NCBI GenBank assembly: GCA_017405945.1
Contig: JAFQZL010000048.1
Location: 1 to 64,000, forward strand
DNA from: Acidaminococcaceae bacterium
Lineage (GTDB): Bacteria; Bacillota; Negativicutes; Acidaminococcales; Acidaminococcaceae
Direction of reading: 5' to 3'
Length of the DNA stretch: 64,000 bases
This document shows, in pieces, positions 17,534 to 50,850 of the stretch. The notes beneath the pieces are model-generated. The model searched no databases. It was given only the letters and a program-made list of their open reading frames with translations, and was not told the origin of the DNA. Made by a program: the position numbers and the translations under genes. Position 1 is the stretch's first letter, and each line of letters begins with the position of its first letter.

Positions 17534-17717
17534 CCCTGTGGGCGGGTGTTTTTGCGTTTTTCGCACCGACAGGGACGCATATTCCACGTTCCGACGCAAG
17601 GGGTCGCCAAAAAAAATTACGCTTCATTTTTTTTGACGATTCACATGCCCCTTGCGGAAGGTAAACGTGGAATATGCTACACTGTTGGAAGAAAAAAAGA
17701 AACCTCTTCTCAACCGT
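17534..17717 (-). promoter_or_regulatory. Large hairpin element, copy 1 (candidate single-strand promoter)
   Basis: Nested stems: 17577-17590 with 17664-17677 (14 bp perfect), CGCAAGGGG 17595-17603 with CCCCTTGCG 17648-17656, and an inner A8/T8 stem (13 of 14 pairs) closing the loop TACGCTTC. On the right arm TTGCGG and TACACT (17678-17683) resemble -35 and -10 boxes. TACACT faces mismatches when folded, and CTGT just outside it pairs again with ACAG. The minus-strand ATG follows at 17498. Confidence 0.8.
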
Positions 17718-17760
17718 GGGATCCGGTTCGTGGCAGGGTGGCGCAGTATGTCTTCCGAAG

Positions 17761-17800
17761 CATAATGTTTGTAATGTTAATAATAAAGATTATTATGTTC
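17761..17800. repeat. AT-rich ATAATGTTTATTAT-like tract beside hairpin 1
   Basis: CATAATG words in both orientations occur over 40 bp, preceded by AGCATAATG as also at hairpin 4. Confidence 0.5.
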
Positions 17801-17850
17801 ACAGCCTATCCTTTTTCATGCGCCGCCAGGCGCAATATCCGAATAACAGG

Positions 17851-17878
17851 GATACAGGAACGGATCCGTTCCTGTATC
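17851..17878. repeat. 28-bp perfect palindrome
   Basis: GATACAGGAACGGA is followed directly by its complement. It lies 9 bp after the end of the 17887 gene without a T run, so it is more likely a protein-binding site or weak terminator than a strong terminator. Confidence 0.6.
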
Positions 17879-17886
17879 TTCCATTT

Positions 17887-18552
17887 TCAAAACGGGCAAG
17901 GCTCGTTGTCCGTCGGCGTATCTTTATCATGGAAGCGTGCGCCCAGTATCGTTTTTCCGTAGATCTCAACGGTCTGGATTCCGTAATCACGTTTTACGAC
18001 GTCCCCGTCAAGGAAGTTTGATAAAGCCCCGTACAGCTCCACGACATCGGTCAGGGTAAGACCGTCGAAATTGGGAATGACGCTGCTCGCAAATTCCTGA
18101 AAGCATACGTCGCTGGTCTGCATATAATCTTCCATGATTTCGGCGTATCTTTCATGCAGCAGGCTTGCCCGTTTGTCTTCCTGTTCCTGCAGTATTTCCG
18201 GGAGCGATTCATTCCTGGCTTTTTCACGTTCCACGACGGCGGTATATGTATTTCCGTCATATTCGATTTCCCACGTCCCGGTAAAGAAGTCTTCCGGCTC
18301 GGTGCAGCAAAGTTCAGCCCCGTTATAGTCGAAGAGGACGGCTTCCGTCCATGCGGTGTTATGATCGCCTTCACGGTATTGGACGCCGCAGCATTTGATG
18401 TCCATCAGCTTGCCGTCGTCAAATTTTGCGGTGACGGTATAGGTCACGTTTTCCGGAAGGCACTCGTTTTCATCTTCCGGTTCATGTGCAAGGAAGCGTT
18501 CAATGGCATTTGCAAGCCGTTCCGCAATAATTACGGTCGTTTTGTAGTTCAT
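17887..18552 (-). CDS. Hypothetical acidic protein
   Basis: The protein has 221 residues with AAAGGAG before ATG. It contains beta-rich segments (YTVTAKFDDGKLMDIKCCGV; TWEIEYDGNTYTAVV) and a helical second half. It is strongly acidic and not recognised. It is the last gene of the operon starting at 20738, behind hairpin 2. An anti-defence or DNA-mimic role would fit context and charge but is only inference. Confidence 0.7.
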   Translation of the reverse strand: MNYKTTVIIAERLANAIERFLAHEPEDENECLPENVTYTVTAKFDDGKLMDIKCCGVQYREGDHNTAWTEAVLFDYNGAELCCTEPEDFFTGTWEIEYDGNTYTAVVEREKARNESLPEILQEQEDKRASLLHERYAEIMEDYMQTSDVCFQEFASSVIPNFDGLTLTDVVELYGALSNFLDGDVVKRDYGIQTVEIYGKTILGARFHDKDTPTDNEPCPF

Positions 18553-18569
18553 CGTTTTCTCCTTTTTTG

Positions 18570-18761
18570 TTATTGCCCGTTTTCGTTCAGTATCTCGGTC
18601 AGCACGTCCAGTGCGGTTTTGACAGTCCGCAGGTGTTTGGCGTCGCCCTCGTCATCGGTGTTCATATCGGATTCAGCCAGGTAGTTGTAGGTGGTTTCCA
18701 GGTCTGTTACCAGCGTATGCAGTTCCTTTTTGCTGGTATAGATGTCACAGTTGATGTGCAT
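18570..18761 (-). CDS. Small helical protein
   Basis: The protein has 63 residues (MHINCDIYTSKKELHTLVTD...), two helices, acidic. AAAGGAG lies 7 nt before ATG. It is 17 bp from the next gene in the same operon. No family known. Confidence 0.65.
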   Translation of the reverse strand: MHINCDIYTSKKELHTLVTDLETTYNYLAESDMNTDDEGDAKHLRTVKTALDVLTEILNENGQ

Positions 18762-18818
18762 ATCGGTTCTCCTTTCGTTTTATGGCGGGCCGGGAGGATT
18801 CCCGGCCCCGTCAGCGTT

Positions 18819-19250
18819 TCAGAATAATGCGATTTCCAAAGGTCGCAGGGCGTTCCTGCAATTCCGTATTGCGTCCAGCACAAACGTTTTCTTGTCTTTT
18901 TCGTCTAACGATTTTTCAATATAGTCCAATTCTTTTTCCACAGCTTCTTCTTTCGTATCGTATTGCGTGTCCCATACGCTTAACCCATGCCCCCATCCCT
19001 GAAGCGGGAATGTGCAGGACGAACCACTAATCCACTTTCCGTTTGGTAATTGCATGAAACTGATTCTCGCAATATATCGCGGTCTGTCAAACAGTATTTG
19101 TTCTTCTACGTTATCGTTTTTATAAAAGCTCAATCCGTTTATACACCAGCCACTTTTGTCAATTACCATATCCCCACGAAAACCACAAGACAGCCATTTT
19201 TCATATTGTCTTTTGTTTTCTCTTTCCTGTCTTTCTTTAAAAGTATCCAT
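18819..19250 (-). CDS. Hypothetical protein
   Basis: The protein has 143 residues. A charged N-terminal helix (KERQERENKRQYEKW) precedes a Gly/Trp-rich middle (PNGKWISGSSCTF, GWGHGLSVWDTQY) and a helical tail. It starts 2 bp after the stop of the preceding gene. Unrecognised; operon behind hairpin 2. Confidence 0.65.
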   Translation of the reverse strand: MDTFKERQERENKRQYEKWLSCGFRGDMVIDKSGWCINGLSFYKNDNVEEQILFDRPRYIARISFMQLPNGKWISGSSCTFPLQGWGHGLSVWDTQYDTKEEAVEKELDYIEKSLDEKDKKTFVLDAIRNCRNALRPLEIALF

Positions 19251-19252
19251 AT

Positions 19253-19468
19253 TTACACTTCTTTCTTTTCGTACTCGATTTGATGGTTAAGGTATGACCA
19301 TTCCTCGTGTATAATAAGGTTCGACCGGGAAAGGCAGTTCACATAACCAAAGTAATAACAGCTCATTCTTGCCCGTGTTTCCTTGTCTTTTTCCTTGCGG
19401 ATTTCTGCAAGCAAGTTTTTCAGGATTCTTGCATGGCACTCCGGCAGATGATTCAGGATATTTTCCAT
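19253..19468 (-). CDS. Small hypothetical protein
   Basis: The protein has 71 residues, helical, with MSCYYFGYVNCLSRSN in the middle. AAAGGAG lies before ATG. Same operon; not recognised. Confidence 0.6.
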   Translation of the reverse strand: MENILNHLPECHARILKNLLAEIRKEKDKETRARMSCYYFGYVNCLSRSNLIIHEEWSYLNHQIEYEKKEV

Positions 19469-19483
19469 TGTTACCGCTCCTTT

Positions 19484-19729
19484 CTATTTCACGATACTGA
19501 TTAAGTCTTTACGCCATACGACATACAAGCCGTTGCCTTTTTCTTTGCCGGGGAAGTGGAATCTGTTTTTCAGTAGGCAGTAAACCTGTTTATCCTTCAA
19601 GAAAATCCTCGTTTCGTTTACCAGTTCGTTGTAAGCGTCCACAAGAATCCTGCACTGGTCGGTGTTAAATCCTCTCGGTCTTTTTCCGTCAACGCACATT
19701 TTTCCCACGTATTTCTGTAACTCTTTCAT
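19484..19729 (-). CDS. Small hypothetical protein
   Basis: The protein has 81 residues, basic (KDKQVYCLLKNRFHFPGKEK), with AAAGGAG before ATG. It lies between RadC and the 71-residue gene in the operon behind hairpin 2. Not recognised. Confidence 0.6.
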   Translation of the reverse strand: MKELQKYVGKMCVDGKRPRGFNTDQCRILVDAYNELVNETRIFLKDKQVYCLLKNRFHFPGKEKGNGLYVVWRKDLISIVK

Positions 19730-19779: not shown

Positions 19780-20445
19780 TTATAAATCTCCGTGTTCTTT
19801 GAAGCTGTAATGTCTTCCGTCGCCGATGACTACATGGTCAAGCAGGGGGATTCCCAGCACTTCGCCAGCTTCTGCCAACGCTTTTGTCAGTCTGTGGTCT
19901 TCAACGCTGGGGCAGGGGTCACCGGAGGGGTGGTTGTGTGCTACAAGTATGGAGGCGGCGTGTGCCGTGACGGCTTGTGCGAAGACTTCTCTCGGGTGTA
20001 CTACTGCACTGGTCAGGCTTCCCTCGGATATCTGCTTTACTTTTGTAATTCTGTTTTTTGAGTTCAACGTCATTACAAAGAATTTCTCGTGGGTTTCGTG
20101 CCGAAGCCGGTCCATAAAGAATTTTGCGGCGTCTCCGGGGCTGGTGATACGTTTCGGCTCATCGGTTTTCAGTCTTGCGATTCTCATTCCAAGTTCGATG
20201 GAGGCAAGGATTCTTGCGGCTTCGGTCTTGTTCAAGCCTAAATATTTCAGCCCGTCGCTGTCCTGTCTTAACAGTCCTTTTAATCCGTCAAGCTGTCCAG
20301 CGAAAAGGCTGTCCTCTTTGTGCATAAGGCATTTTGCCTTTTCGCTGTTGTTAAGGATTACGCCTAAAAGGGCTTCCGTGCTGACGGTCGTTGCCCCATA
20401 GTTCTCAATGGCTTCGACGGATTCGTTGATTCTGTAATCTTTCAT
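19780..20445 (-). CDS. radC: RadC-like JAB-domain protein
   Basis: The protein has 221 residues. The JAMM/MPN metal site is LVAHNHPSGDPCPSVEDHRL near residue 170, preceded by VMTLNSKNRI. The N-terminal UPF0758 helices are present. GAGAGGAG lies before ATG. RadC-like genes recur in plasmid and ICE accessory regions; the biochemical role is not established, and a deubiquitinase-like or anti-defence role has been suggested for relatives. It is the second gene after hairpin 2. Confidence 0.9.
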   Translation of the reverse strand: MKDYRINESVEAIENYGATTVSTEALLGVILNNSEKAKCLMHKEDSLFAGQLDGLKGLLRQDSDGLKYLGLNKTEAARILASIELGMRIARLKTDEPKRITSPGDAAKFFMDRLRHETHEKFFVMTLNSKNRITKVKQISEGSLTSAVVHPREVFAQAVTAHAASILVAHNHPSGDPCPSVEDHRLTKALAEAGEVLGIPLLDHVVIGDGRHYSFKEHGDL

Positions 20446-20771: not shown

Positions 20772-20962
20772 TCCTGCGGGGGAATTTTTTGATTTTTTTC
20801 GCACCTACGGTGAAGCACGGACAACCGACCGACGCAAGGGACTTTCAAAAAAAATTACACCTCATTTTTTTTGAAAGGTTCATTTTACCCTTGCGGAAGG
20901 AATCGGTTTCCGTGCTACACTGTTGGAAGAAAAAAAGAAACCCTCCACTCCAACATGATCCG
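20772..20962 (-). promoter_or_regulatory. Large hairpin element, copy 2
   Basis: The outer stem AGCACGG...ACCGA / TCGGTTTCCGTGCT has one bulge and differs in sequence from copy 1 while still pairing. The middle stem is CGCAAGGG/CCCTTGCG; the inner stem CTTTCAAAAAAAAT / ATTTTTTTTGAAAG is perfect (14 bp) around loop TACACCTC. At the base TACACT pairs with the left arm except at its second base A. The operon of RadC follows. Confidence 0.8.
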
Positions 20963-21218: not shown

Positions 21219-23978
21219 GTGAACGAGTTGGAGCAACGCAAGGCAGCGAAAGCCTTTGCGGAGGCATGGCGTAACAAAGGCGATGAAAAACAGCATACAC
21301 AGCAGTTTTGGAGCGATCTGCTGCACCGGGTATACGGCATCACGAATTTTTCCCAGCGGGTTGAGTTCGAGAAGCGTGTACCGTTACTGCACACCAGCTT
21401 CATTGATGTTTATATTCCTGAAACGAATGTGCTGATCGAGCAGAAGTCGATGGATGTTGATCTTCTCAAACGCAAAAAGCAAAGTGACGGCAGTGAGCTG
21501 AACCCCTTTGAGCAGGCGCAGCGCTACGGGGCCAGGCTGCCGTTCTCCGAACGCCCGCGCTGGATCGTTACATGTAATTTCCAGAAATTCGTCATTTATG
21601 ACATGGAAGCGGTCCGTCCGGAGGCGAAGCCTACGGAAATCCTTTTGGAAGAGCTGCCGGAAAAGTTTTCCATGCTTTCCTTCATGGTGGACGCCAGCAT
21701 CAGGAAGATCACCGTTGAACAGGAGCTTTCTTTCAAGGCGGGCGAGCTTGTCGGAAGATTATATGATATGATGCTCCCGTTGTATAAGGATCCCACGGCC
21801 GAGTCCACATTGCAGAGCCTTAATAAACTCTGCGTCCGTATTGTATTCTGTTTATATGCGGAGGATGCCCTGCTGTTCGGGCCAAAAGGCACAGAGTTCC
21901 ACGATTACCTTGAAGGGGAGTCCAATACCCGTATGGCGCTGATGCGGTTGTTCATTATCCTTGACCAGCGTGAGAACGACCGTGAACCATACACGGAAAA
22001 AGTCTTGATGGATTTTCCGTACGTCAACGGCGGATTGTTCGCCGAAAACATTGAAATCCCCATCATTCCCGATGATGTGAAGAACCTGATTTTAAAGGAT
22101 ATGTCCGAGAACCTGGACTGGAGCAAAATATCACCAACCATCTTCGGCGCGGTATTTGAATCCACCTTGAACCCGGAGACAAGGCGAAAGGGTGGGATGC
22201 ATTACACCAGCGTCCGGAACATCCACAAGGTCATAGATCCCTTGTTCCTCGACAATCTTGAGGCGGAATTTGATAAGATACTGACCGACAATATGTCGGG
22301 GCCAAGGCGGAGGACGGCCTTGGAAACATTCCAGAACAAACTGACGACGCTGTATTTTCTCGATCCTGCGTGTGGATCAGGAAACTTTCTCACGGAAACG
22401 TTCCTGTCGATACGCAGGCTGGAAAACAGGGTTATCGAATGCCTGCAGAAAGGGCAGATGGTACTGGAATTTGCGAATCCCGTAAAAGTTTCCATCAAAC
22501 AATTCGCCGGTATCGAGATCAATGATTTCGCCGTGACCGTTGCGCGGACCGCTTTATGGATCGCGGAAAGCCAGATGATCAAGGAAACAGAAGCCATTGT
22601 AAATCAGACAATAGACTTTTTCCCGTTAAAAACCGACGCAAAGATTGTGGAGGGGAACGCGCTCCGGATGGACTGGAACGATGTCATGGTTGTCTCTAAA
22701 TACGCTTTGGCATATATCATGGGGAATCCGCCGTTTGTCGGCTTTACTTTTATGTCAAAAGAACAAAAGTCGGATATGCAACATATCTTCCCCGGTATCA
22801 AAAATTTAGACCTCGTTTCCGCATGGTATAAAAAGGCGTCAGATTACATTGATGGTACAAGAATTGAATGTTGTTTTGTTTCCACGAATTCAATAACGCA
22901 GGGCGAAACAGTATCAAGGCTTTGGAAAAACCTGGATATAAAAATCAATTTTGCTTATAGGAGTTTTATTTGGGACAGCGAAGCGAATAACAAAGCGCAC
23001 GTGCATTGTGTTATAATTGGTTTTTCAAAGTTCAACAAATCGAAAAAACTTATCTTTGACAAAGATACAACAATAGAGGCTGCTAACATAAATCCGTATT
23101 TAATGGATGCCCCGGATCTATTGGTCGAAAGCAGGAACAAACCGTTATGCAATGTCCGTAAAATGATTTACGGCAATAAGCCCGCAGATGGAGGTTTTTT
23201 AATAATCGAGGATAACGAGTATGCCTCGTTTATTAGCCAGGAACCGCAGGCCAAGAAATATATCAGGCCGTTATTGGGAGCCGTAGAATATTTACATAAC
23301 AAAAAAAGGTTTTGCTTATGGTTGGAAAACGTTTCTCCTGCGGAATTGAAAAAATGTCCGCTTATTTTGGACCGTGTAAAAAAATGCAAAGAAAATAGAG
23401 AAAATAGTATAGCTGCAGGTATCAGAAAATTTGCTGACACTCCGACGCTGTTTGCTCAAATTACTCAACCTGTTGGGAAGCCGTATATTATTGTTCCACG
23501 GGTATCGTCTGAAACAAGACGATATATTCCTATGGGATTTATAGATGGCAACACTATTGCGAGCGATGCAGTACAAATTATTCCAGATGCATCTTTATAT
23601 GATTTTGGTATTTTGGAAAGTAATGTTCACATGGCTTGGATGCGAACTGTTGCAGGAAGGTTAGAAAGTCGTTACCGTTATTCTAAAGATGTTGTTTATA
23701 ACAATTTTCCGTGGTGTACGCCGACTGACCAACAGCGAGAGAAAATCGAAAAGACTGCTCAATCAATTTTAGATGCACGGGCAAATTATCCCGAATCGTC
23801 ATTGGCTGACCTTTACGATGAAACGCTTATGCCTGTCGATTTACGCAAAGCACACAAAGCAAACGACCGTGCTGTTATGGAAGCATACGGTATGTGGGGA
23901 AAGGTTAACTCCGAAGCCGAATGTGTTGCATGGCTGTTCAAGATGTATGAAGGGCTGGTCGGTTCACAACTTAAATAA
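21219..23978 (+). CDS. MmeI-like type IIG restriction-modification enzyme / class I DNA methyltransferase
   Basis: The protein has 919 residues with a GTG start. The N-terminal region (about 62-82) has FIDVYIPETNVLIEQKS, a D-x-ExK-type nuclease site as in MmeI-like enzymes. The methyltransferase core has motif I LDPACGSGNF near residue 382 and motif IV GNPPF with Asn503, typical of N6-adenine methylation. The C-terminal half would hold target recognition. From about 22750 onward the GC content falls compared with the N-terminal part, suggesting exchange of the recognition domain. Probably a stand-alone enzyme that modifies the element and cuts unmodified DNA. Confidence 0.85.
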   Translation: MNELEQRKAAKAFAEAWRNKGDEKQHTQQFWSDLLHRVYGITNFSQRVEFEKRVPLLHTSFIDVYIPETNVLIEQKSMDVDLLKRKKQSDGSELNPFEQAQRYGARLPFSERPRWIVTCNFQKFVIYDMEAVRPEAKPTEILLEELPEKFSMLSFMVDASIRKITVEQELSFKAGELVGRLYDMMLPLYKDPTAESTLQSLNKLCVRIVFCLYAEDALLFGPKGTEFHDYLEGESNTRMALMRLFIILDQRENDREPYTEKVLMDFPYVNGGLFAENIEIPIIPDDVKNLILKDMSENLDWSKISPTIFGAVFESTLNPETRRKGGMHYTSVRNIHKVIDPLFLDNLEAEFDKILTDNMSGPRRRTALETFQNKLTTLYFLDPACGSGNFLTETFLSIRRLENRVIECLQKGQMVLEFANPVKVSIKQFAGIEINDFAVTVARTALWIAESQMIKETEAIVNQTIDFFPLKTDAKIVEGNALRMDWNDVMVVSKYALAYIMGNPPFVGFTFMSKEQKSDMQHIFPGIKNLDLVSAWYKKASDYIDGTRIECCFVSTNSITQGETVSRLWKNLDIKINFAYRSFIWDSEANNKAHVHCVIIGFSKFNKSKKLIFDKDTTIEAANINPYLMDAPDLLVESRNKPLCNVRKMIYGNKPADGGFLIIEDNEYASFISQEPQAKKYIRPLLGAVEYLHNKKRFCLWLENVSPAELKKCPLILDRVKKCKENRENSIAAGIRKFADTPTLFAQITQPVGKPYIIVPRVSSETRRYIPMGFIDGNTIASDAVQIIPDASLYDFGILESNVHMAWMRTVAGRLESRYRYSKDVVYNNFPWCTPTDQQREKIEKTAQSILDARANYPESSLADLYDETLMPVDLRKAHKANDRAVMEAYGMWGKVNSEAECVAWLFKMYEGLVGSQLK

Positions 23979-26034: not shown

Positions 26035-28212
26035 TTATGAAAGCAAATTCTTTAACCTGGCACGGATGCCCGTATCGAACCGGAACCCAAGATGATGTTC
26101 CAGTTCCTTACGGTTCATGCGAATTTTGGCATTATTAGCATCAGGAAGCTTTTCAGCCTGTATCTCACGAGGAAGAAGACTGGCCCAGTTCGATACCATC
26201 TTCTGTCCTGTTTTATCATTGCTTAAACAAATAGTAACATATTTTTCATCAATATAAAACGATTTCTTTTCTGTTTCATAAAGTCTAATTATCCGTTTCA
26301 GTTCCTCATCATAAACCGATTGTGAGTTAGCAGCATAATCAACATCCCACGACAATACTTTCATATATTTAGGAATGTCAAAACCGTATTCTTTAATAAT
26401 TTGAATAATGATTTTTGACGATTTTTTCATCAATTCAGGTGAATACTTATCCGTAAGTCCTTCTCCTGTATACAGCTTATTTAATTCGTCCGCAACGTAC
26501 GGAAGCATATAGGACAAATACTTGCGATAGAAAGCAGTACCGACACGGTTAATCAACTGCCTACCTTTTGTATCCATCTCACGAGGAATTACCTTGCTCG
26601 AAAGTCCAATATCAAAACTCATAAACACCATTCGCTTTCGCAGCGTTTCATCAGGATCAGACACTACGTTGGAAGCAAATACAGTCATTGGTTGACACTC
26701 ACGCTGTTCGATTTCGCAAGAATCTACTGTTCGTATCATTCCTGCAAAGGCGATTTTAAACGAGGAAGTAACTTCATCAATAAAAATAGGAATACCTTTG
26801 TGCAAGTATTTTTCATGCTTTTGAAAGATTTCTAAATCCTTTGACTTAACCCTATCAAATTTATACGTAAACCCTTTTTTGCCAGTCATCATTTTCAAAA
26901 AATACTGTACCATAAAGGTCTTTCCGCTATTTGATTTGGGCGAATTCAATAAAATATATAAAGGCAAACCTGATGTGCCAATATCACGCAGATATGCGGC
27001 ACAGCGCAATTTTGCATTAAACGGTGAAGAAAACATCGCATTCATCAATTTAAAATAATTATCTTTCGCCTGTTCTACCCGGCCAATAAAATTATCAAAG
27101 TTTGAAAATACCGAAAGCAGTTCCTTAATATCATTTTTCACATCATCATCCGATGGAAACAGGTCAACCTTTTGTTTATCCAAAAAAACAGTATTAGTCG
27201 GATAATCTATTGTCATACGAGGATATTCTTCCGACTTTTTTTCAATACTAATTTTTTTCATACTAACTTTGTTGGCAAGAAACGAATATTTCGTAATAAG
27301 CTTGGGAACTAACTGAATCACACCATTCTTTGATGATAATTTGAGTTCCTTGGATATTTCCCTATGGAACTGCTTCAGATTCTCCAAATCTTTGTTATAT
27401 TCAATAATTTCAAATTTAATTTCAGGGTCATTGATCTCCCTGACAATAATAGCCTTATCAATTATGCTTTTCTGTATATTTTCAAGTATAGGATTGTCAT
27501 CCTTTATCGAATACATTTCCGTTTCTACGCCTGCGATATCCTTGTCAGGAAGCTCCTCCATAGGCGTTTCTCTGACTTCCTGTTCAACCCGTGCGTTCGG
27601 AATAACAGGTTCAGACAGCGCCCAAGCGGTTTCAAACTCTGCCAGATACGCATCATAAGTGGCAGGGTCATCGCTGACAACAAAGTTTTCAATTTGGTTA
27701 AGTCCTGTCCATGCCCGAGCAGAAATATTGGCAGAAGGCATAATTGCACGTGTCCTGCCGTCATCGGCTTTCAGAAGATATATCTTACGATGGTCAATCA
27801 ATGCCATCGGGCACCGTATCTCTACTTCTTCTTCAACAACCCGTTTCGCCAGCTTCTTATTACGGTGCAGGCTTAACCGTAGTTCGTCAGATGTTGCCAT
27901 TATCTCATCCATTTGGTTTGCCAATGTCTGATTCAACTTCGAAGCAACAAATTCTGCGCCAAGAATAATCTGCGCCTGCTCAAACTTCTCTGTCAACCGT
28001 GCTACAAAGCCAAAGTTATAAGAAAAAGATATGACCTTTAAGTCCTGATACCCGTTAAAAAGGCTCAACGGGTCTTCCATCGTAGTGTCTTCATACTTTA
28101 CCCAATGACACCGTATCAGATTGTTATTGGAAATAAAATCGTTTCTGTTGACAACCGTTATCTGCGGGATTTCAGTTTCTCCAAACAAACTCGTTACATT
28201 ATCATCAGCCAT
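26035..28212 (-). CDS. PLD-family nuclease fused to a P-loop ATPase
   Basis: The protein has 725 residues. About residues 130-175 hold one PLD motif, DHRKIYLLKADDGRTRAIM followed by PSANIS (His about 140, Asn about 159), as in HKD nucleases of restriction and defence systems. Residues 240-400 are unassigned. A P-loop LNSPKSNSGKTFM lies near residue 428 and a Walker B IPIFIDEV near 476, with helical sequence to the end. A single HKD motif would require a dimer. It heads a two-gene operon with its own promoter and operator repeats beside an RM system, so a defence role is the best inference. I do not know this architecture as a named system. Confidence 0.75.
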   Translation of the reverse strand: MADDNVTSLFGETEIPQITVVNRNDFISNNNLIRCHWVKYEDTTMEDPLSLFNGYQDLKVISFSYNFGFVARLTEKFEQAQIILGAEFVASKLNQTLANQMDEIMATSDELRLSLHRNKKLAKRVVEEEVEIRCPMALIDHRKIYLLKADDGRTRAIMPSANISARAWTGLNQIENFVVSDDPATYDAYLAEFETAWALSEPVIPNARVEQEVRETPMEELPDKDIAGVETEMYSIKDDNPILENIQKSIIDKAIIVREINDPEIKFEIIEYNKDLENLKQFHREISKELKLSSKNGVIQLVPKLITKYSFLANKVSMKKISIEKKSEEYPRMTIDYPTNTVFLDKQKVDLFPSDDDVKNDIKELLSVFSNFDNFIGRVEQAKDNYFKLMNAMFSSPFNAKLRCAAYLRDIGTSGLPLYILLNSPKSNSGKTFMVQYFLKMMTGKKGFTYKFDRVKSKDLEIFQKHEKYLHKGIPIFIDEVTSSFKIAFAGMIRTVDSCEIEQRECQPMTVFASNVVSDPDETLRKRMVFMSFDIGLSSKVIPREMDTKGRQLINRVGTAFYRKYLSYMLPYVADELNKLYTGEGLTDKYSPELMKKSSKIIIQIIKEYGFDIPKYMKVLSWDVDYAANSQSVYDEELKRIIRLYETEKKSFYIDEKYVTICLSNDKTGQKMVSNWASLLPREIQAEKLPDANNAKIRMNRKELEHHLGFRFDTGIRARLKNLLS

Positions 28213-28250
28213 TGTTTTTTCTCCTTGTATTATTCCAGAAATAAGACTTA

Positions 28251-28311
28251 ATTTTTAGACTTCCTTACTGTATTGTATCGTTTATCCAAAAATAAGTCAA
28301 TATTTTTAGAC
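28251..28311 (-). promoter_or_regulatory. Promoter and direct-repeat operator of the PLD-ATPase operon
   Basis: Minus-strand TTGACT (28295-28300), 17 bp, TACAAT (28272-28277). The plus-strand word ATTTTTAGAC occurs at 28251-28260 and 28302-28311, flanking the promoter, as expected for an autoregulator site. Confidence 0.7.
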
Positions 28312-28321
28312 AGCCCAAAAA

Positions 28322-28354
28322 CAAAAAAATCCAGCCGAAAATTGACTGGATTTT
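28322..28354 (-). terminator. Terminator of the thyX operon
   Basis: On the minus strand AAAATCCAG and CTGGATTTT pair and end in T7. Confidence 0.8.
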
Positions 28355-28398
28355 AAAAGAAAAGCTATATACTTTTACATGTATCGCAAAACTTATCA

Positions 28399-29055
28399 TT
28401 ATTGCCTTTCACTGTTGTCGTCTCCAAAAACTTCGTTACACAGGATGTCATCAAAAACGATAGGGATCACGTGTTTAAACGTTTCCAACAGGGGGACCGC
28501 AACCTCCCGCATCTGCGGATGGGCCGCCGGGCTGGTGCGGAGCTTGAAGAAATGCCGCCACTCTCGGAGGTTCATCGTTACGATGATTTCCGTTTTCAGA
28601 CTGTTTGGCAGTACGGCCCTGGCCTCCTGCGGCGTCGCCCCCAGCCGGATCAGTTCCATATAATCTTCCTCGATCCGCTGCATGGCATTTGTCCATACGC
28701 CCATCTTCGCCGGGTCGTCCTTCCAATAGAACGGGCGGATGAAGGTCAGCTCGTTGCCGAATTTCTCATTGGAGTAATTGCAGTATCTGGTACTTTCCTG
28801 CGAATACGAGGCGATCCGGTGTCTGACGATCTCATGCGTCACGCCCCGGTCACAGGTGATGCGGACGGTCACCTTTTCATGCTCAAGAACGGACTCGTGG
28901 CCTTTTTTGATGATGTTAAAGACAAATCTCCGAGCGGAATCCTTTGTAATTTTGTTCTCGCTTTTGTAACAGGTGCGCCCGGCCCGTTCGATACGCCGCA
29001 GCATTTCCTCGCCGTTGACAGGCAGGAACCAAAAACTCGGTTCAATGATTTTCAT
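28399..29055 (-). CDS. thyX: Flavin-dependent thymidylate synthase
   Basis: The protein has 218 residues. The ThyX signature RHRIASYSQESTRY (RHRxxS) lies near residue 78, and REWRHFFKLRTSPAAHPQMR supplies the C-terminal dUMP and FAD contacts. It makes dTMP from dUMP with methylene-tetrahydrofolate and FAD. AAGGAGG precedes ATG. Phages and large plasmids carry thyX to support their own DNA synthesis. It is the last gene of an operon starting with the second M48 peptidase. Confidence 0.95.
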   Translation of the reverse strand: MKIIEPSFWFLPVNGEEMLRRIERAGRTCYKSENKITKDSARRFVFNIIKKGHESVLEHEKVTVRITCDRGVTHEIVRHRIASYSQESTRYCNYSNEKFGNELTFIRPFYWKDDPAKMGVWTNAMQRIEEDYMELIRLGATPQEARAVLPNSLKTEIIVTMNLREWRHFFKLRTSPAAHPQMREVAVPLLETFKHVIPIVFDDILCNEVFGDDNSERQ

Positions 29056-29097
29056 TTTGGCAGTCCTCCTTTTTTATGTTTGCCAACACAAAATTTG

Positions 29098-29469
29098 TTA
29101 TTGCTTTAATTCCGGCAAACCGGTAAAACCTATGCAATAAATGGTTCGTTTAGCCAGTTTGGCCAGCCGGAATATATAGTTTGTCTCGATTTCCTTCCCG
29201 CTCCCGAACAGGATGACCTCGTCAACCAAAGACATGATCTCCAATATGCAGGCCTGGCGTTTCGGGATGGAATCGGGCAGGGGCAGGGCATAGCACGAAA
29301 TATGGCAGGAACGCGCCCAGATTTCCGTTATATGACACGTTCCGTCCTGACGGAACGTGTATATCGTGTTTCCTTTTTTAACGCGCTCCTGAAGGATTTT
29401 TCGCACTGCATCCATGTCTGCGAAGCTGGCGTTTCCGTAAACAAGGAATCTCTTGGATTTATTCTCCAT
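29098..29469 (-). CDS. Small Rossmann-like (SLOG-type) hypothetical protein
   Basis: The protein has 123 residues. Alternating strands and helices (RFLVYGNASFADMDAVRKIL; EVILFGSGKEIETNYIFRLA; RTIYCIGFTG) suggest a nucleotide-binding Rossmann-like fold of the DUF2493/SLOG kind. The family call is tentative. It overlaps the upstream gene by 11 bp. Confidence 0.6.
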   Translation of the reverse strand: MENKSKRFLVYGNASFADMDAVRKILQERVKKGNTIYTFRQDGTCHITEIWARSCHISCYALPLPDSIPKRQACILEIMSLVDEVILFGSGKEIETNYIFRLAKLAKRTIYCIGFTGLPELKQ

Positions 29470-29752
29470 CTTTATTCCTCATGCGGAGCAGCGCCTCGTA
29501 TTCTTTTACAAGCCTTTTTTGTTTTCGTTTAAGGCATTGATCTTCTTTTTGTTTTCTGCAGATACGTTCCTTTTTCTCCGCAAACCGGTCCCGCCCGGAC
29601 GGGCCGTTCAGTACCGTCCGCCCACGTCGTTGCCGGAGGTAGTCGGTAATGAAACGGTCTTCCTCCTCGGATACCCAGTATGTTTTATGGATTCTTACCA
29701 CCCTTCCGAAAGGGCGTCCTACGTTCTTTTTATTATCAGTCATATTTTTCAT
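29459..29752 (-). CDS. Basic small protein, MobC-like start
   Basis: The protein has 97 residues, very basic. NVGRPFGRVVRIHKTYWVSE followed by EEDRFITDYLRQRR resembles the ribbon-helix-helix start of some relaxosome accessory proteins, with a Lys/Arg coiled tail. No relaxase is nearby, so this is only a suggestion. It overlaps the M48 gene by 17 bp. Confidence 0.55.
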   Translation of the reverse strand: MKNMTDNKKNVGRPFGRVVRIHKTYWVSEEEDRFITDYLRQRRGRTVLNGPSGRDRFAEKKERICRKQKEDQCLKRKQKRLVKEYEALLRMRNKDGE

Positions 29753-30656
29753 CCTCTTCTACGCGGCCCATATATTGCCGGATGCGTTTGAGCCGTTTTT
29801 CTGTTACGGGATGCGTAGACCAGAAGCTGTCCACGAATCCTACAGGCTTTTCACTCCTCGTGACGAAGGAAAGGCCCTTGTACAGTTCTGCGGCAAAGCC
29901 CAGCTCACAGGCGTAACGGTCCGCGTCGTATTCTTCATACCGGGAAAATAACAGCGTGACCAATAGAGACGGCACATTGATTACAAAATGGATCACTGTG
30001 AGGCAGATCGCCACAGCCCAGGTATAAATCCCCAACACGATATTCACGATAGGAATCCACACGAGCCAGTTGCAGACCATCACGGTCAAATTCAGGATGC
30101 TGACGGCCATATCCCCGAAGAAACCCATGCAGGAAAGCAGGATGTTGATGCGGGTATCCCCGTTATGGATGTGTCCTGCTTCGTGAGCGAGGATCCCGGC
30201 CAAGGGAAGCGTCCATAATTTGTCGATGGCGCCACGAGTCACGATGATATTGTTTTTCCCGAACGCAGCTGCGTTGCACCCCGCTTCTTCCAGCACGTAC
30301 AGGTTATAATCATTTAAAGCCCTGCCTTCCTTTTCACAGACAAGACGCAGGGCGCCGCTGAGTTTTTCATAGTCTTTCCCGGTCGCCTTCCTTGCCCCCA
30401 TCATAAAAAGAATGATGCGCTGCATAAGCCAGGTGCGGCAAAAGAGGCAGGGGACGAAAATGGTAACAAGAGACAGGTTTAGGATCAGGTTCTCCGTGGT
30501 AGGAGGGATATGCAGGAACACAAGCATATCCTTTACCCCGTTCCACAATGGTTCGGGCGTGCAGTACCACACTGCACCCCAAAGGACAGACACCAACCCC
30601 ATGTTGGCAATGAATGTTAAAGTTAAAGCGACAAATCCACGAATCATGGCAAGCAT
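29736..30656 (-). CDS. Second M48-family membrane zinc metallopeptidase
   Basis: The protein has 306 residues from ATG 30656, where AGGAGGT is 7 nt upstream. Membrane spans lie near residues 5-30, 50-75 and 165-220. The zinc site is LAHEAGHIHNGDTRI and the third ligand lies in EEYDADRYACELGF. It is paralogous to the protein at 199-1152 but clearly diverged. It is the first gene of the operon with the RHH-like, Rossmann-like and thyX genes. Two 36-nt repeats lie 58 bp before its start. Confidence 0.88.
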   Translation of the reverse strand: MLAMIRGFVALTLTFIANMGLVSVLWGAVWYCTPEPLWNGVKDMLVFLHIPPTTENLILNLSLVTIFVPCLFCRTWLMQRIILFMMGARKATGKDYEKLSGALRLVCEKEGRALNDYNLYVLEEAGCNAAAFGKNNIIVTRGAIDKLWTLPLAGILAHEAGHIHNGDTRINILLSCMGFFGDMAVSILNLTVMVCNWLVWIPIVNIVLGIYTWAVAICLTVIHFVINVPSLLVTLLFSRYEEYDADRYACELGFAAELYKGLSFVTRSEKPVGFVDSFWSTHPVTEKRLKRIRQYMGRVEEDEKYD

Positions 30657-38815: not shown

Positions 38816-39472
38816 ATGTCGTTTTCGGTAGAAGAAGATTTTTTCTGCAATGTCTATTGCGAGATGGTGAACTGGGAATGGGAACGGTCCATGCAAAAGG
38901 CCCTCTCTGAATCCAGGGCGGAACTGCAGGAATCAAGGGACAGGCTCAATGCCGTCCATCACAAGGGTTCCCTTATTATGAAAAAGATGCGGGATACCGC
39001 TATCGGGACTGACAAGTATCTTCTTCTTCAAAACGCTTTGAAGAAGGTAAAAGCGGCACAGGTAAAATGTACCGCGGATTTTTATGAACGGAAACACAGG
39101 CACACTGTTTTCACGAAGCAGTACCGTACGGAAAGCAGGAAACGGAAGGGCCAGGCAAAAGCCGTGTTCAACGGGATGACGCTGAACCAGAAGGTCTTAT
39201 TGGCAAGGAGCCTGATGGACAGGGGCATCGCCGTGACCGCCTGCAGGAAATATCTTGTCGCTGCGGAAGAACATGCGGCCTCATACGGTATGGCCATGGA
39301 CCAGGTACAGGAAAGTGCGGATCTGGCACTGCACCGCGAAACAGAAAAGGATATAGCAGTAAAAGAATGGCGTCAGAAAAGAGTAAGCCCCCATCCCCGA
39401 CGTAAAGAGGCGAAAAAAAATACTTATCAGCGTTCAGGATATGCCGAAGGCAGGAAAATAGAAATCTGCTAA
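38816..39472 (+). CDS. Basic coiled-coil hypothetical protein
   Basis: The protein has 218 residues from ATG 38816, 17 bp after the previous stop. Long helices (MQKALSESRAELQESRDRLN) and a Lys/Arg-rich second half. Probably in an operon with 38179. Not recognised. Confidence 0.65.
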   Translation: MSFSVEEDFFCNVYCEMVNWEWERSMQKALSESRAELQESRDRLNAVHHKGSLIMKKMRDTAIGTDKYLLLQNALKKVKAAQVKCTADFYERKHRHTVFTKQYRTESRKRKGQAKAVFNGMTLNQKVLLARSLMDRGIAVTACRKYLVAAEEHAASYGMAMDQVQESADLALHRETEKDIAVKEWRQKRVSPHPRRKEAKKNTYQRSGYAEGRKIEIC

Positions 39473-39486
39473 TACATATTTTTTTA

Positions 39487-39537
39487 CTTGCGGAAAATAA
39501 TATAAAGTATATAGTAAAGGATATTATTTTCCGCAAG
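39487..39537. repeat. 17-bp perfect inverted repeat
   Basis: CTTGCGGAAAATAATAT (39487-39503) and its complement (39521-39537) flank AAAGTATATAGTAAAGG. It lies 44 bp before the 39581 gene and contains -10-like words; an operator or regulatory hairpin. Confidence 0.7.
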
Positions 39538-39580
39538 GGAAGATGAAATATGCCTTGGGCAAGATTTAAAGGAGAAGTAA

Positions 39581-46383: not shown

Positions 46384-46566
46384 CCCTGTGGGCTGTGTTT
46401 TTGCGTTTTTCGCACCTACGGGGCAGCACAGACGACAGGCTGGAACGCAAGGGGTCTTCCCAAAAAATTTACACTTCAATTTTTGGGGAAGATGCTACTC
46501 GCCCCTTGCGGGAAAGACGGTCTGTGCTACGCTGTAGGCAGAAAAAAAAGAACCTCCGCTCAACCG
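46384..46566 (-). promoter_or_regulatory. Large hairpin element, copy 4
   Basis: Outer stem AGCACAGAC/GTCTGTGCT (perfect), middle stem CGCAAGGGG/CCCCTTGCG, inner stem CTTCCCAAAAAATT / AATTTTTGGGGAAG (one mismatch), loop ACACTTC. TACGCT at the base lies 16 nt after TTGCGG; its second base A is mismatched and CCTAC/GTAGG pairs again outside it. Confidence 0.8.
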
Positions 46567-46675: not shown

Positions 46676-47713
46676 TTATAAACGCCGGACAGCAGCTCCT
46701 TTGTGCAGGTTGTAAAGGAACTGCTGCATTTTTTGTTTGAATTCGTCCGGGGCTTTCATAAGATATTCGTTGGGATCTTTGTAGGAACCGCTTACGGATG
46801 AGACCAGACGATAGCGGATACCGTGTTTCCTGCATTCAGAGGCAAGTTTTCTTGTGGCATCTTTTCCCGCTTCATCATTGTCCAGGGCGATAAGACAGGT
46901 TCCTTTCGGTTTTGTTTTAACCAGTTTTTCCACGAAACGGTTTATCCGTGCAATACTTCCCAGCGCGACCGCAGGCGCGCCGACGGCGTACAGGGAAAGG
47001 CAGTCGAATTCGCCTTCCACCACAAAGAAACAGAAGGAATTTTCGATGGCTTTTTGTCCGAAGAAATAGTCCTGAAGCTGACCGCATTTCATCTTTGAAA
47101 ACTGTTTCTTCTGCTTTTTCCGTGTATCCCGCGCAAGGTAGGCGTGTTTTCCTAATGGTATGATGAGGCGGGGGGTATAGTAGTGCTTGCTTTTTGATGC
47201 GTTTTTAGGATGTTCCCATCTCGGATCAAAGCCGATACCGAAACCGTCGGCCAGCCGGGCCGGGATTCCCCGCGAGGCAAGATACTGATAACCGCCTTTA
47301 TTCATGTTCCTGAAACAGGAACGGAAATAATCAACATAGTCAACGGTGTCTTCAGCAGGTCCGGCCGTTGTTCCGACAGGTTGGTCCGGCGGGGCGGGAA
47401 CAGGGCGGATCGGTATCTTGTTATCATCAGGCAGATATATATTGCAAAGAGATTTAAAGGCTTCTTTACGGTTCGGCAGGTGTTCAAGTTTCATGCAGAG
47501 GTCAAGCATTCCCCCGTTTTCCCCGCAGGAATGGCAATACCATGTCCGTTTGGCGAAATCCACGGCCAGCGCGCCTGTGGAATGGGCGCCGTGCGTACCG
47601 CTTCCACAGAACGGGCATTGATAAAAGTTCTTGGTTTTTGCGTCTTTTTGAAGGACGGAGTTTATGTAGTCAGGGAAATGTTCAAGCAGAACCTGAAACT
47701 TTTGGCTTTTCAC
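46676..47713 (-). CDS. CHC2 zinc-finger / Toprim primase
   Basis: The protein has 345 residues from GTG 47713, with AGGAGG 8 nt upstream and a 4-bp overlap with the upstream gene. The zinc finger uses Cys33, Cys36, Cys60 and Cys63 (CPFCGSG...WYCHSC). The Toprim core has VVEGEFDCLSLYAVG and IALDNDEAGKDA. It is shorter than DnaG and lacks the helicase-binding domain, as in plasmid and phage primases. It would prime the element's lagging strand or the transferred strand. Confidence 0.9.
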   Translation of the reverse strand: MKSQKFQVLLEHFPDYINSVLQKDAKTKNFYQCPFCGSGTHGAHSTGALAVDFAKRTWYCHSCGENGGMLDLCMKLEHLPNRKEAFKSLCNIYLPDDNKIPIRPVPAPPDQPVGTTAGPAEDTVDYVDYFRSCFRNMNKGGYQYLASRGIPARLADGFGIGFDPRWEHPKNASKSKHYYTPRLIIPLGKHAYLARDTRKKQKKQFSKMKCGQLQDYFFGQKAIENSFCFFVVEGEFDCLSLYAVGAPAVALGSIARINRFVEKLVKTKPKGTCLIALDNDEAGKDATRKLASECRKHGIRYRLVSSVSGSYKDPNEYLMKAPDEFKQKMQQFLYNLHKGAAVRRL

Positions 47714-48265: not shown

Positions 48266-49699
48266 CTAATCTCCAAATTCCACCAAGTAGTTCAGCACCA
48301 CTGCGGATTCGTCATAGAACACGATTTCCTCGTTCCGCAGAGCCATATTGCCGGGGATAGCGTGTACGCAGTTGCAATTCTGACTAACCATGCTCCGTCT
48401 TGCGTTCTCGCCCATTTCGTTGACCGGCTTATAAGGTGTTCCGTAGGCGGTGGCATACAATCCCAAGATTCCTCTCGGCTCGTTTCCGTTAGACCAATAT
48501 GAGCCACGATAAGAGGTATATCCGCACGACTTGTTGGGGGATACCGCAAAATAGATTCCGTTGCCGAACATCTTGCCGGTGATTCGTGCGTTGGGGTTCA
48601 GCAATAAGCCATTGGACAGAATGGAAGCCCAATTTGCGTTCCGGCTTCCGTGCCAAAGTTTCCGCACATCGTGGATATTATGTTTCTTGCGGTATTCTGT
48701 GAAGCGTTTTTCCTGCACATGGGGTTTTACCCGCCAGATACGTTTGATTTTGTCCTTGTGGTCGAAATTGGAAAGGTACTGCATGACTTCGGCTTTCTGC
48801 TTATCGTTGACAAGGTAGATTTCCGTGTCGGCAAAAGTGCCTTGTGCGGTAGGTTTCATAATCGCGGCTTCCATAGCGCAGATGAGACTTTCCTCAAAGT
48901 CGATGATTTGGGCAAAATCACTGACGGAATGAGCAAAATAATTGCCGATGTTGTCTCTCTGCATTGGGTTGCTCTTCCGTGGGGAAAGTACGATAAGTTC
49001 CGCAAGGCAGTTGTTGAAATCACTGACGGTCTTGCAGGCGCAGAGTTCTTTCCATAATCTGCGACATTCCTTGACCTGGGCCTCGGTGAAATGGCGTATG
49101 GACAAGGCGGTGTCCAAGACATTCCGTGCGTATCTCTGCAAAAGGCTGTACAGTTCACGATGTGGGGCAAGCGCCGGGTCATCTGTTTTCACCACGGCGG
49201 TTGAGTTTCCGTCATTCAGATAGAATTTGCTTTTGTCGGTATAGCCTTTGGACAGTTTCTCATAATAGCGAATCCAATACAGATAGCTTTCGTAAGGCTC
49301 CTGCACTGTCCTTACGTTCCCTTTGGAAACATCGTCAAGTCTGCCGTAGTCGGCGTACACAACGTTCCCTTCCGGTCGCAGGATATAAGCCTTGTAATTG
49401 TTGCTCTCGTGGTGTACGCAGGTGAGGTAGGCTTTTTTATAGGTGCTTCTCGCAAGTCCTTTAATATAGTTCTTGACAGTGACGAACATGGACGGCTTCA
49501 CCACGCCGTTTTCCGTGTATGTGCCACGTTTTTTTACGTCCAATTCGGCGGTGCCGTTTGGGCAGTGGATTTCGATTTTGCTTGGGATAGGGATATTCAG
49601 CAAACGCTTGCCCACATTTTCCCAAAAGTTGCTCTCGGTTTCGTTGTACAAGAAATACTGTTTCATCGTTCCGTCAAAAATCATGGTAGCCTGCAACAT
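48266..49699 (-). CDS. Bacterial PARP with WGR-like domain
   Basis: The protein has 477 residues. Residues 85-160 resemble a WGR domain with YGR (YILRPEGNVVYADYGRL). The C-terminal ADP-ribosyltransferase domain has the PARP triad: His about 349 in LWHGSRNANW, Tyr about 382 in GNGIYFAVSPNKS, Glu about 458 in RNEEIVFYDE. The glutamate suggests chain-forming PARP activity from NAD+. GAGAGGAG lies before ATG. It ends the four-gene operon behind hairpin 5; a WGR-PARP sensing DNA ends or modifying host defence on entry would fit. Rare in bacteria. Confidence 0.88.
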   Translation of the reverse strand: MLQATMIFDGTMKQYFLYNETESNFWENVGKRLLNIPIPSKIEIHCPNGTAELDVKKRGTYTENGVVKPSMFVTVKNYIKGLARSTYKKAYLTCVHHESNNYKAYILRPEGNVVYADYGRLDDVSKGNVRTVQEPYESYLYWIRYYEKLSKGYTDKSKFYLNDGNSTAVVKTDDPALAPHRELYSLLQRYARNVLDTALSIRHFTEAQVKECRRLWKELCACKTVSDFNNCLAELIVLSPRKSNPMQRDNIGNYFAHSVSDFAQIIDFEESLICAMEAAIMKPTAQGTFADTEIYLVNDKQKAEVMQYLSNFDHKDKIKRIWRVKPHVQEKRFTEYRKKHNIHDVRKLWHGSRNANWASILSNGLLLNPNARITGKMFGNGIYFAVSPNKSCGYTSYRGSYWSNGNEPRGILGLYATAYGTPYKPVNEMGENARRSMVSQNCNCVHAIPGNMALRNEEIVFYDESAVVLNYLVEFGD

Positions 49700-49714
49700 T
49701 TTCGTTTCTCCTCT

Positions 49715-49924
49715 CTATTTCCGTATAACAGTAAATTCGTAGTCCGTATCAAGTTCGCTTTCGATAATATCAAGGGATTTGACAAATTCAACGCCTTTGT
49801 CAAACGCCTTGCCGGATTTCAGCCATTCTTTCAGTTCCTCATCGGTTGCGTTCCTCATATCGTGGGGAACATTTACGCTGTACCGGTTATAAGAGGTTTC
49901 TTTCATAACGAACATAATGTACAT
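49715..49924 (-). CDS. Small acidic protein
   Basis: The protein has 69 residues, MYIMFVMKETSYNRYSVNVP then an acidic helical part. AAAGGAG precedes ATG. Third gene of the PARP operon; not recognised. Confidence 0.6.
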   Translation of the reverse strand: MYIMFVMKETSYNRYSVNVPHDMRNATDEELKEWLKSGKAFDKGVEFVKSLDIIESELDTDYEFTVIRK

Positions 49925-49939
49925 AATGTTTCTCCTTTC

Positions 49940-50188
49940 TTATTCCACGATATGTCCGTATGCCTTGACTTCCACGATTCGGTCCTCGCTGGAATCCATT
50001 TCGTCACACAAACTCGCCCAAAGTTCCGTCAATTCCGTTTCCTTGTCCTCTCCGTACAAGTCCAATTCCGTTTCAAACCATTGTCCTCGGTTCTCTTGGA
50101 ACAGTACGGCAACAGTGGTCGGAACGTGGGGCGCCACGTTCCATTTCTGTTTTTCCTTTGCCTTTTTGATGGCTTCTGCTATGGTCAT
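49940..50188 (-). CDS. Small acidic protein
   Basis: The protein has 82 residues from ATG 50188 (MTIAEAIKKAKEKQKWNVAP...), with GAGAGGA upstream. The C-terminal half is acidic (DLYGEDKETELTELWASLCD). Second gene of the PARP operon; not recognised. Confidence 0.65.
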   Translation of the reverse strand: MTIAEAIKKAKEKQKWNVAPHVPTTVAVLFQENRGQWFETELDLYGEDKETELTELWASLCDEMDSSEDRIVEVKAYGHIVE

Positions 50189-50202
50189 TTTCCTCTCTCC
50201 TT

Positions 50203-50631
50203 TCATTTTTCCACTCTGTTTGCGGTAGTGGTAGCTTCTGCGGTTTCTTCCGTTTCTTCCATATCGACATCTTCCAAACCTAAATCATTTTCAATTTCCA
50301 AAAACTCTTCCGCAAGCGCCCAGGCTTTTTCGCAGGCTTCGTCCTTGTTTTGTGCTTCCGTGGTTACGGATAACTTCACTTCTGCGTAATAAAGGCATTT
50401 ATAATATCCGTTACCGCTATCGTGGTAAAACTCATCATCATCGCATTCGGTAAATTCGCTATATGTGGAAACGACTGTCAGGGCGCCGTCGAAATACTTT
50501 TTTCCGTCCTCGATATCAAACGGAGGTTTTGCTTCTTCTTCCACACAATGCACACCATAATAAGTATCGTGCAACACATAGCTTTGTTCGTGATAATTGC
50601 CTTTTACCAAAATATCGGTTTTGTATTTCAT
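50203..50631 (-). CDS. Acidic hypothetical protein, first gene after hairpin 5
   Basis: The protein has 142 residues with GAGAGAGAGGA 6 nt before ATG. Beta-rich start (MKYKTDILVKGNYHEQSYVL), YHDSGNGYYKCLYYAEVKLS, then a very acidic tail (ENDLGLEDVDMEETEETAE). Not recognised; acidic small proteins at leading positions are often anti-defence DNA mimics, an inference only. Confidence 0.7.
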   Translation of the reverse strand: MKYKTDILVKGNYHEQSYVLHDTYYGVHCVEEEAKPPFDIEDGKKYFDGALTVVSTYSEFTECDDDEFYHDSGNGYYKCLYYAEVKLSVTTEAQNKDEACEKAWALAEEFLEIENDLGLEDVDMEETEETAEATTTANRVEK

Positions 50632-50664
50632 GATTTTTCCTCTCTCTCTACTCGCTCATCTATG

Positions 50665-50850
50665 CCCTGTGGGCGGGATTTTTTGATTTTTTTCGCACCC
50701 ACAGGGGAGCGTGGGGCAAACCCGTAGCGCAAGGGGGATTCCAAAAAAAATTACACCTCATTTTTTTTGGAAGATGCCACTTGCCCCTTGCGGGAAGGGT
50801 GGCCCATGCTACGCTGTTGGAAGAAAAAAAGAAACCTCCACTCAACCGTG
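50665..50850 (-). promoter_or_regulatory. Large hairpin element, copy 5
   Basis: Outer stem AGCGTGGG / CCCATGCT (one G-T), middle stem CGCAAGGGG/CCCCTTGCG, inner stem TTCCAAAAAAAAT / ATTTTTTTTGGAA perfect, loop TACACCTC. TACGCT lies 16 nt after TTGCGG; its second base is mismatched and CCCACAG/CTGTTGG pairs beyond it. The PARP operon follows. Confidence 0.8.

Follow-up and report, generated by a model that had tools for sequence, protein, structure and literature searches.

A likely integrative and conjugative element of an Acidaminococcaceae genome with seven covarying hairpins as probable Frpo/ssi-type single-strand DNA promoters on its predicted transferred strand

The DNA analyzed here (the window, 64,000 nucleotides) comprises bases 1-64000 of contig C42 (JAFQZL010000048.1; 64,428 bases) of the Acidaminococcaceae bacterium assembly GCA_017405945.1, a genome of 2.46 Mb in 63 contigs. 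A preliminary description of this DNA had pointed to five co-oriented hairpins, each upstream of the first ATG of a minus-strand operon, and had read them as single-strand promoters of the kind known from plasmid F as Frpo. All five (E1-E5) were located on the plus strand, and to the left of each stand a ribosome site and an ATG of the minus strand. A hairpin scan of the window plus further fetched stretches added two more copies, E6 and E7, on contig C14 (Table 1). The two contigs share an exact end of 141 bases that occurs nowhere else in the genome, and the simplest order is therefore reversed C14 followed by C42. In this order, all seven copies have the same orientation, and an opposite-strand operon begins close to each of them, with the hairpin on its upstream side. 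C14 carries genes for a MobA/MobL relaxase (28172-30562, plus strand), VirB8, CagX, TrbI, VirD4, TrbE, and TrbL, as well as a copy of the 3' end of tRNA-Pro at position 34812; C42 carries an integrase gene (59485-60681), and the intact tRNA-Pro lies on contig C1 (6285-6361). The tRNA-Pro copy and the intact tRNA-Pro mark a likely integrated element, and the hairpins likely sit on an integrative and conjugative element (ICE). The stretch between the right end of C42 and C1 was not found.

As single-stranded DNA (ssDNA), each of E1-E5 is predicted by an energy model to form a single long hairpin, with minimum free energies of -38.3 to -44.5 kcal/mol. The layout consists of an A+T-rich stem at the top, TTGCGG (TTGTGC in E7) in mid-stem, and a TAnnnT box toward the base of the 3' arm. 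The boxes named in the preliminary description, TTGCGG in the stem and TACACT, TACAAT, or TACGCT at the base of the 3' arm, are all present in E1-E5, whereas the conservation that it ascribed to the middle stem and loop is near but not strict: 98.4% of the middle-stem cells are paired over the seven copies, E2 carries CGCAAGGGA/CCCTTGCGG there, and the loop of E3 differs. For the seven-row alignment, the majority of the single-sequence structures was taken as the common structure, and its 43 pairs were counted. Altogether, 86.5% of the cells were paired, and only 39.9-54.6% once the 3' partners were slid by 1-3 columns; as the structure was derived from the same rows, which favors the percentage paired, changes on both sides of a pair are the stronger measure. 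Such changes were present in 18 of the 43 pairs (30 cells), compared with 9.8 pairs and 12.2 cells in shuffled alignments, and 0 of 500 shuffles were as high, in a test that is inflated by the relatedness among the copies. The covariation score was 0.315, versus 0.163 in the shuffles. The compensatory changes described earlier for the outer and inner stems were thereby confirmed, and the covariation is significant against the shuffles. The paired columns contained 14 G:T cells and 3 A:C cells, indicating that the plus strand is the folded molecule.

The TAnnnT box can be read as a -10 box, TAC(A/G)CT or TACAAT, with TTGCGG (or its counterpart in E7) 15-20 nt before it on the same arm. An extended -10 motif (TGn) precedes the box in 6/7 copies, E3 having CGT instead. 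The first A of the box (A-11) is unpaired with a probability of at least 0.99 in all seven copies, while the flanking arm positions average 0.14-0.31, and the -9 base (the second A, or G) is unpaired in 5/7 copies. The preliminary description was thus right about an unpaired -11 A and wrong only in calling it the second A of the box. It had also regarded the spacing between the boxes as a weak point. On the 3' arm alone, this spacing varies from 15 to 20 nt (standard deviation 1.73), but averaged over both arms it is 17.0-18.5 (standard deviation 0.52). In E1 and E2, the 3' arm is longer and the 5' arm shorter; these lengths offset one another when both arms are counted, which resolves the variability. 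The arm-compensated spacer, the extended -10, and the copies E6 and E7 go beyond what had been described. As the -10 box is on the 3' arm, the template would be the 5' arm together with the part of the strand left of it, which in each case holds the opposite-strand operon. The first ATG of the operon lies 69-87 nt from the base pairing with -13 in all seven copies, and the predicted leader would therefore be somewhat shorter than that.

A predicted origin of transfer (oriT) lies upstream of the relaxase gene, on the minus strand of C14, where an inverted repeat is followed by TAAGTTCGCTCT, which matches 10 of the 12 letters of the MOBQ consensus core TAAGTGCGCCCT quoted in PMC3832669 (this and the other papers given by PMC number are cited for their accessible parts). 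Matches as loose as this are expected by chance over 39 kb, in which an 11-mer allowed up to two mismatches gave 11 hits; the weight therefore lies on the place of the block and on its conservation in genome G011, which has a relaxase 73% identical to that of the element. By the MOBQ rule for nick position and strand sense, the transferred strand (T-strand) would be the minus strand of C14 and hence the plus strand of C42. The predicted MOBQ-type oriT would thus make the plus strand the transferred one, carrying the boxes of all seven hairpins, in agreement with the strand polarity proposed in the preliminary description. Relative to the predicted oriT, E7 lies at +25.7 kb and E1-E5 at +45.4, +48.6, +63.0, +74.2, and +78.5 kb, and E6 is found on the lagging side (-3.5 kb) and would enter last; these offsets are valid if the order of C14 and C42 is valid. 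In the reconstructed order, the type IV secretion system genes come first after oriT. Placement in a leading region in the usual sense, as initially proposed, is therefore not supported.

We searched for relatives using a covariance model of the seven copies (R1), which scored 8 candidates per genome, so that other forms may escape, and the E-values of which are rough by a factor of about 5. In its own genome, the model found the seven copies and a minus-strand echo of E5. Matches occurred in 3 of the 380 genomes of the class and, among the 398 genomes of the phylum, in the own genome only. The match in G011 (C9:51898-52048, E 1e-15) lies upstream of a helix-turn-helix gene and reads TTGCGA-N15-TACAAT. 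That in G030 (C7:5809-5946, E 8e-6) reads TTGCCG-N16-TATAAT, with TGG before the box, and is on the strand opposite the adjoining TrwC relaxase gene, just as the copies here are opposite their relaxase gene. On other stretches of G000, G011, and G030, the model gave nothing at E ≤ 0.5. The best named plasmid relatives of the element by topoisomerase III (TopoIII) are one Megamonas and one Selenomonas plasmid; the TopoIII search in viral contigs gave nothing useful. In the Megamonas plasmid (NZ_CP048628), the best match (E 1.7e-4, followed by its minus-strand echo at E 0.0092) reads TTGTCT-N16-TATCAT and lies upstream of ardA-ssb, opposite the relaxase gene. As judged from sequence, the relatives in G030, the Megamonas plasmid, and G011 keep the box design. 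On the Megamonas plasmid (L030:39000-39074), a second near-perfect hairpin is seen about 60 nt past the promoter-like one. Over about 51 nt of its length, the top stem of the G030 relative has 85.5% identity with a hairpin in a small Streptococcus mutans plasmid with RepL and MobV (aligned stretches L077:5840-5890 and L117:1408-1462), where the R1 match is weak (E 0.28). This likeness may point to a possible link between ICE promoters and the single-strand origins (sso) of rolling-circle plasmids.

Pattern and sequence searches added no further copies. In its own genome, the middle-stem pattern, which cannot catch E6 or E7, found only the five window copies; over 59 genomes of the family, it matched seven, the own genome and six others, and the matches in those six look like coding sequence by eye. 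The exact promoter pattern gave two hits in genome contigs (Aliiroseovarius and Duganella), to which the model gives no support, and none in viral contigs. BLAST with E5, the sole copy tried, found no match in phages.

Frpo is a single-strand promoter that is active on entry and silenced on conversion to duplex (PMC9849209). In ColIb-P9, of which 55,002 of 93,399 bases were searched, chosen to cover the leading side plus some of the transfer genes, the top three of eight R1 matches at E ≤ 1 (E 0.0012, 0.011, and 0.022) are all on the T-strand, each upstream of a leading operon, one being that of ssb. These three sites are 79.5-88.9% alike and match the Frpo copies of F. The leading region of IncI1 plasmids is described as three operons transcribed from ssi3-1, and in related plasmids all three operons lie within about 12 kb of oriT (PMC10104558). 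The three ColIb-P9 sites appear to fit the published ssi1-3. Like the hairpins here, they are T-strand sites upstream of operons, one of which includes ssb; unlike the copies here, which are spread far from oriT, the operons of the related plasmids are near it. Within 20 kb of the leading side of F, Frpo1 and Frpo2 ranked first and third of 30 matches at E ≤ 10. Both are likewise folded T-strand promoters upstream of ssb and early genes, with the T-strand as template, and Frpo1 can be aligned to the model in its A+T-rich top stem, its 3' bulge, and its GGGG/CCCC stem. They differ from the hairpins here in their leading-region placement, in the lack of BLAST similarity to E3, in a -10 column that is not clearly matched, and in their weak R1 score. 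Samuel et al. (2024) defined Frpo-like leading-region candidates by -35, -10, UP element, and fold (PMC11541004), and plasmids have been surveyed for Frpo by BLAST (PMC12826799). The inferred role of those candidates is the same; they were found by consensus boxes and BLAST, whereas the hairpins here were defined by covariation, lie on a likely ICE, are spread over the element, and have a conserved unpaired A-11. In a search largely without subscription literature, we found no paper joining Frpo with Negativicutes or with a covariance model, or an ssDNA promoter with an integrative and conjugative element.

We consider it likely that the seven hairpins are Frpo/ssi-type ssDNA promoters on the predicted T-strand of a likely ICE. 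Their predicted ssDNA fold rebuilds -35 and -10, with boxes that are weak relative to the consensus, and on the predicted oriT the T-strand placement and orientation hold for all seven. Of the computable Frpo/ssi properties tested other than sequence homology, only the oriT-proximal, leading-region placement is missing; on homology the results diverge, with no BLAST match for E3, three ColIb-P9 sites found by the model, and weak scores for F, and the hairpins are set apart from the BLAST-defined Frpo family; as they are not oriT-proximal, we class them as elements that work like Frpo and ssi rather than as leading-region Frpo. The single-strand promoter geometry and the resemblance to Frpo and ssi, as first proposed, are supported by the predicted fold, the boxes, and the matches in ColIb-P9, and the covariance-model search suggested as a check gave those matches in ColIb-P9 and weak results in F.

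Several findings weigh against this reading. TTGCGG fits the -35 consensus at only 3/6 positions, and TACACT and TACGCT are weak -10 boxes. The probability that A-11 is unpaired is 0.94 in the G030 relative, 0.51 in that of the Megamonas plasmid, and 0.11 in that of G011; overall, 8/10 sequences reach at least 0.94, and two of the three relatives have no clearly unpaired A-11. In ColIb-P9, R1 covers the upper stem (model positions 17-118 or 37-102) and not the -10 end. In F, searched over 98,990 bases, the repeat that was equated with Frpo1 ranked second (E 0.089) and Frpo2 tenth (E 0.47) of 11 matches at E ≤ 1. The best match in the Selenomonas plasmid, searched over 45.8 of 65.8 kb, had an E-value of 0.21. 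BLAST with E3, the sole copy tried, against 72,556 plasmid records including F gave no match at E ≤ 1. Homologues of the gene behind E1 occur in 10 of 379 genomes of the class and, in a protein search, in 2 of 398 genomes of the phylum (own included in both); no such hairpin was found at 11 of their loci outside the own genome. Finally, the oriT is predicted and not mapped, with nick position and strand sense read from the general MOBQ rule, and the copies are far from it (25.7-78.5 kb, and one at -3.5 kb).

The most serious competitor, which we consider improbable, is that the hairpins are sso that recruit RNA polymerase solely to prime the second strand, the genes using ordinary double-strand promoters. 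The sso of rolling-circle plasmids and ICEBs1 are folded ssDNA as well, and many of those of rolling-circle replication are promoters for the host RNA polymerase (PMC4595007), a folded-promoter principle shared with the Frpo of F (PMC4595007, PMC7736820); in addition, the top stem of the G030 relative shares 51 nt with two small S. mutans plasmids. However, sso prime DNA synthesis, whereas here each of the seven copies precedes an operon, the first ATG of which keeps the distance given above, and the copy number exceeds what priming should need. No good conventional minus-strand promoter was seen around the copies (best 7-8/12, at varying positions, without a shuffle control). Moreover, TAGCGT, presumably the ssoA motif, is absent from both strands of all seven copies.

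We give even less credit to a regulatory structure in the leader RNA of the minus strand (an attenuator, riboswitch, or protein-binding leader) with a promoter further upstream. The hairpin does sit in the 5' region of each operon, where transcription from an upstream promoter would include it, but the excess of G:T over A:C on the plus strand is the reverse of that expected for a minus-strand RNA, and the model, built from the plus strand, also prefers it (e.g., 158.6 vs. 37.0 bits). Visual inspection showed no T-run after the hairpin on either strand, for which reason an intrinsic terminator was also dropped, and an Rfam scan of the window gave no match at gathering scores. Nor would a leader RNA give a reason for the unpaired A-11 or for the constant box distance of 17-18 nt. 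Hardly credible is a plus-strand non-coding RNA, such as a 6S-like decoy or an antisense RNA, or a different kind of ssDNA signal, such as a site for recombination or primase: the conserved fold is indeed that of the plus strand, and pairing alone cannot separate RNA from ssDNA, but no plus-strand promoter beating shuffles was found left of E1-E5 (5/5 at or near the shuffled mean), the window has no Rfam match, and the position before operons and TAnnnT with TGn suit a promoter.

If the hairpins are single-strand promoters, the T-strand would fold into them on entry. The RNA polymerase of the host would then bind the stem in the way it binds duplex DNA, with A-11, being unpaired, open from the start. 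Transcription would start near the stem base with the 5' arm as template and run into the operon, so that single-strand DNA-binding protein (SSB) and other establishment proteins could be made before the second strand exists. Second-strand synthesis, which the transcripts may also prime, would then remove the hairpin and turn the promoter off. More tentatively, and with the odds rather against it, folded single-strand promoters might form one structural class in Bacillota ICEs and proteobacterial plasmids, marked by an A-11 left unpaired and by a spacing of 17-18 nt over the two arms; strung along the whole T-strand of this ICE, they would fire their operons in the order of entry, as a zygotic clock instead of a switch confined to the leading region. 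What is gained is a covariance-supported definition of single-strand promoters, and since BLAST with E3 gave no link to the known plasmid family, this definition allows searching where sequence search fails. The copies suggest that, to work on folded DNA, RNA polymerase may need A-11 to be open beforehand, the -10 to be extended, and the spacing to be helical rather than counted on one strand, and that entry-phase expression could span a 100-kb element and not just the vicinity of oriT.

Table 1. Hairpin copies, genes behind them, and the contig overlap (window coordinates unless C14 is given)
Feature	Position	Strand	Remarks
Hairpin E1	17549-17704	+	TTGCGG 17652-17657; extended -10 TGC-TACACT, hexamer 17678-17683, 3' arm
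Hairpin E2	20785-20942	+	TTGCGG 20891-20896; extended -10 TGC-TACACT, hexamer 20916-20921
Hairpin E3 (upstream of ssb)	35167-35326	+	TTGCGG 35276-35281; -10 TACAAT 35297-35302; without TGn
Hairpin E4	46398-46556	+	TTGCGG 46506-46511; extended -10 TGC-TACGCT, hexamer 46528-46533
Hairpin E5	50679-50836	+	TTGCGG 50788-50793; extended -10 TGC-TACGCT, hexamer 50810-50815
Hairpin E6	C14:31319-31472	C14 minus	Hairpin scan
Hairpin E7	C14:2119-2224 (2093-2240 by covariance model)	C14 minus	Hairpin scan
Gene behind E1, 221 aa	16833-17498	-	DUF1281_C (Api92-like) PF18406, weak, E 0.12
First gene behind E2, 84 aa	20484-20738	-	No family assigned
E2 operon, RadC-family protein	19780-20445	-	
E2 operon, further small genes	17887-19729	-	No family assigned
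First small open reading frame behind E3, 39 aa	34997-35116	-	
E3 operon, SSB	34493-34945	-	Single-strand DNA-binding protein
First gene behind E4, 156 aa	45880-46350	-	No family assigned
First gene behind E5, 142 aa	50203-50631	-	No family assigned
E5 operon, PARP-type ADP-ribosyltransferase domain protein	48266-49699	-	
E5 operon, CHC2/Toprim primase-like protein	46676-47713	-	
Exact 141-bp overlap with start of C14	1-141	+	Only these two places in genome

The operons behind the hairpins had initially been supposed to hold small anti-defense genes. They carry genes for SSB, a RadC-family protein, a DUF1281_C-like protein, a PARP-type ADP-ribosyltransferase, a Toprim protein, a Fic protein, and many proteins without an assigned family. 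No known anti-defense family was found in the genes scanned, which were not every small gene and for which PADLOC covers defense and not anti-defense. 'Establishment' seems a fair word for these genes by their sequences, and an anti-defense role is not supported. Among the 120 listed relatives of the E1 protein, 7 have the PF18406 DUF1281_C domain. The leading side of ColIb-P9 likewise carries a DUF1281 gene, the protein of which weakly matches the E1 protein by BLASTP (48 residues, E 0.018), and PADLOC gave a weak match of the E1 protein to NsnC (E 4e-4). The E5 operon comprises three small genes and those of the ADP-ribosyltransferase domain and Toprim proteins, the latter with PADLOC matches to reverse-transcriptase-linked primases. 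The E4, E6, and E7 operons consist of small genes with no family among those scanned, and the Fic protein is encoded in the E6 run. A gene for Thy1 (flavin-dependent thymidylate synthase; 28399-29055) was seen in the minus-strand block left of E3.

Other features of the element were noted in passing. A separate, symmetric hairpin, CTTGCGGAAAATAATAT / ATATTATTTTCCGCAAG, lies at 39462-39567, upstream of a small plus-strand gene, and is missed by the promoter model. The element also carries a Cas12a gene that is flanked upstream by an array of 8 repeats and downstream by several divergent ones (5012-5515, 5537-9418, and 9512-10028 for gene and repeats together); Cas1 and Cas2 were not among its scanned neighbors, and no further search for them was made. 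An MmeI-type restriction-modification enzyme is encoded at 21219-23978, and large hexapeptide/beta-solenoid repeat proteins are encoded at 51092-55116. Similar-looking repeat proteins, as judged by eye, are encoded at C1:378-4506, adjoining tRNA-Pro, and perhaps represent the other end of the element.

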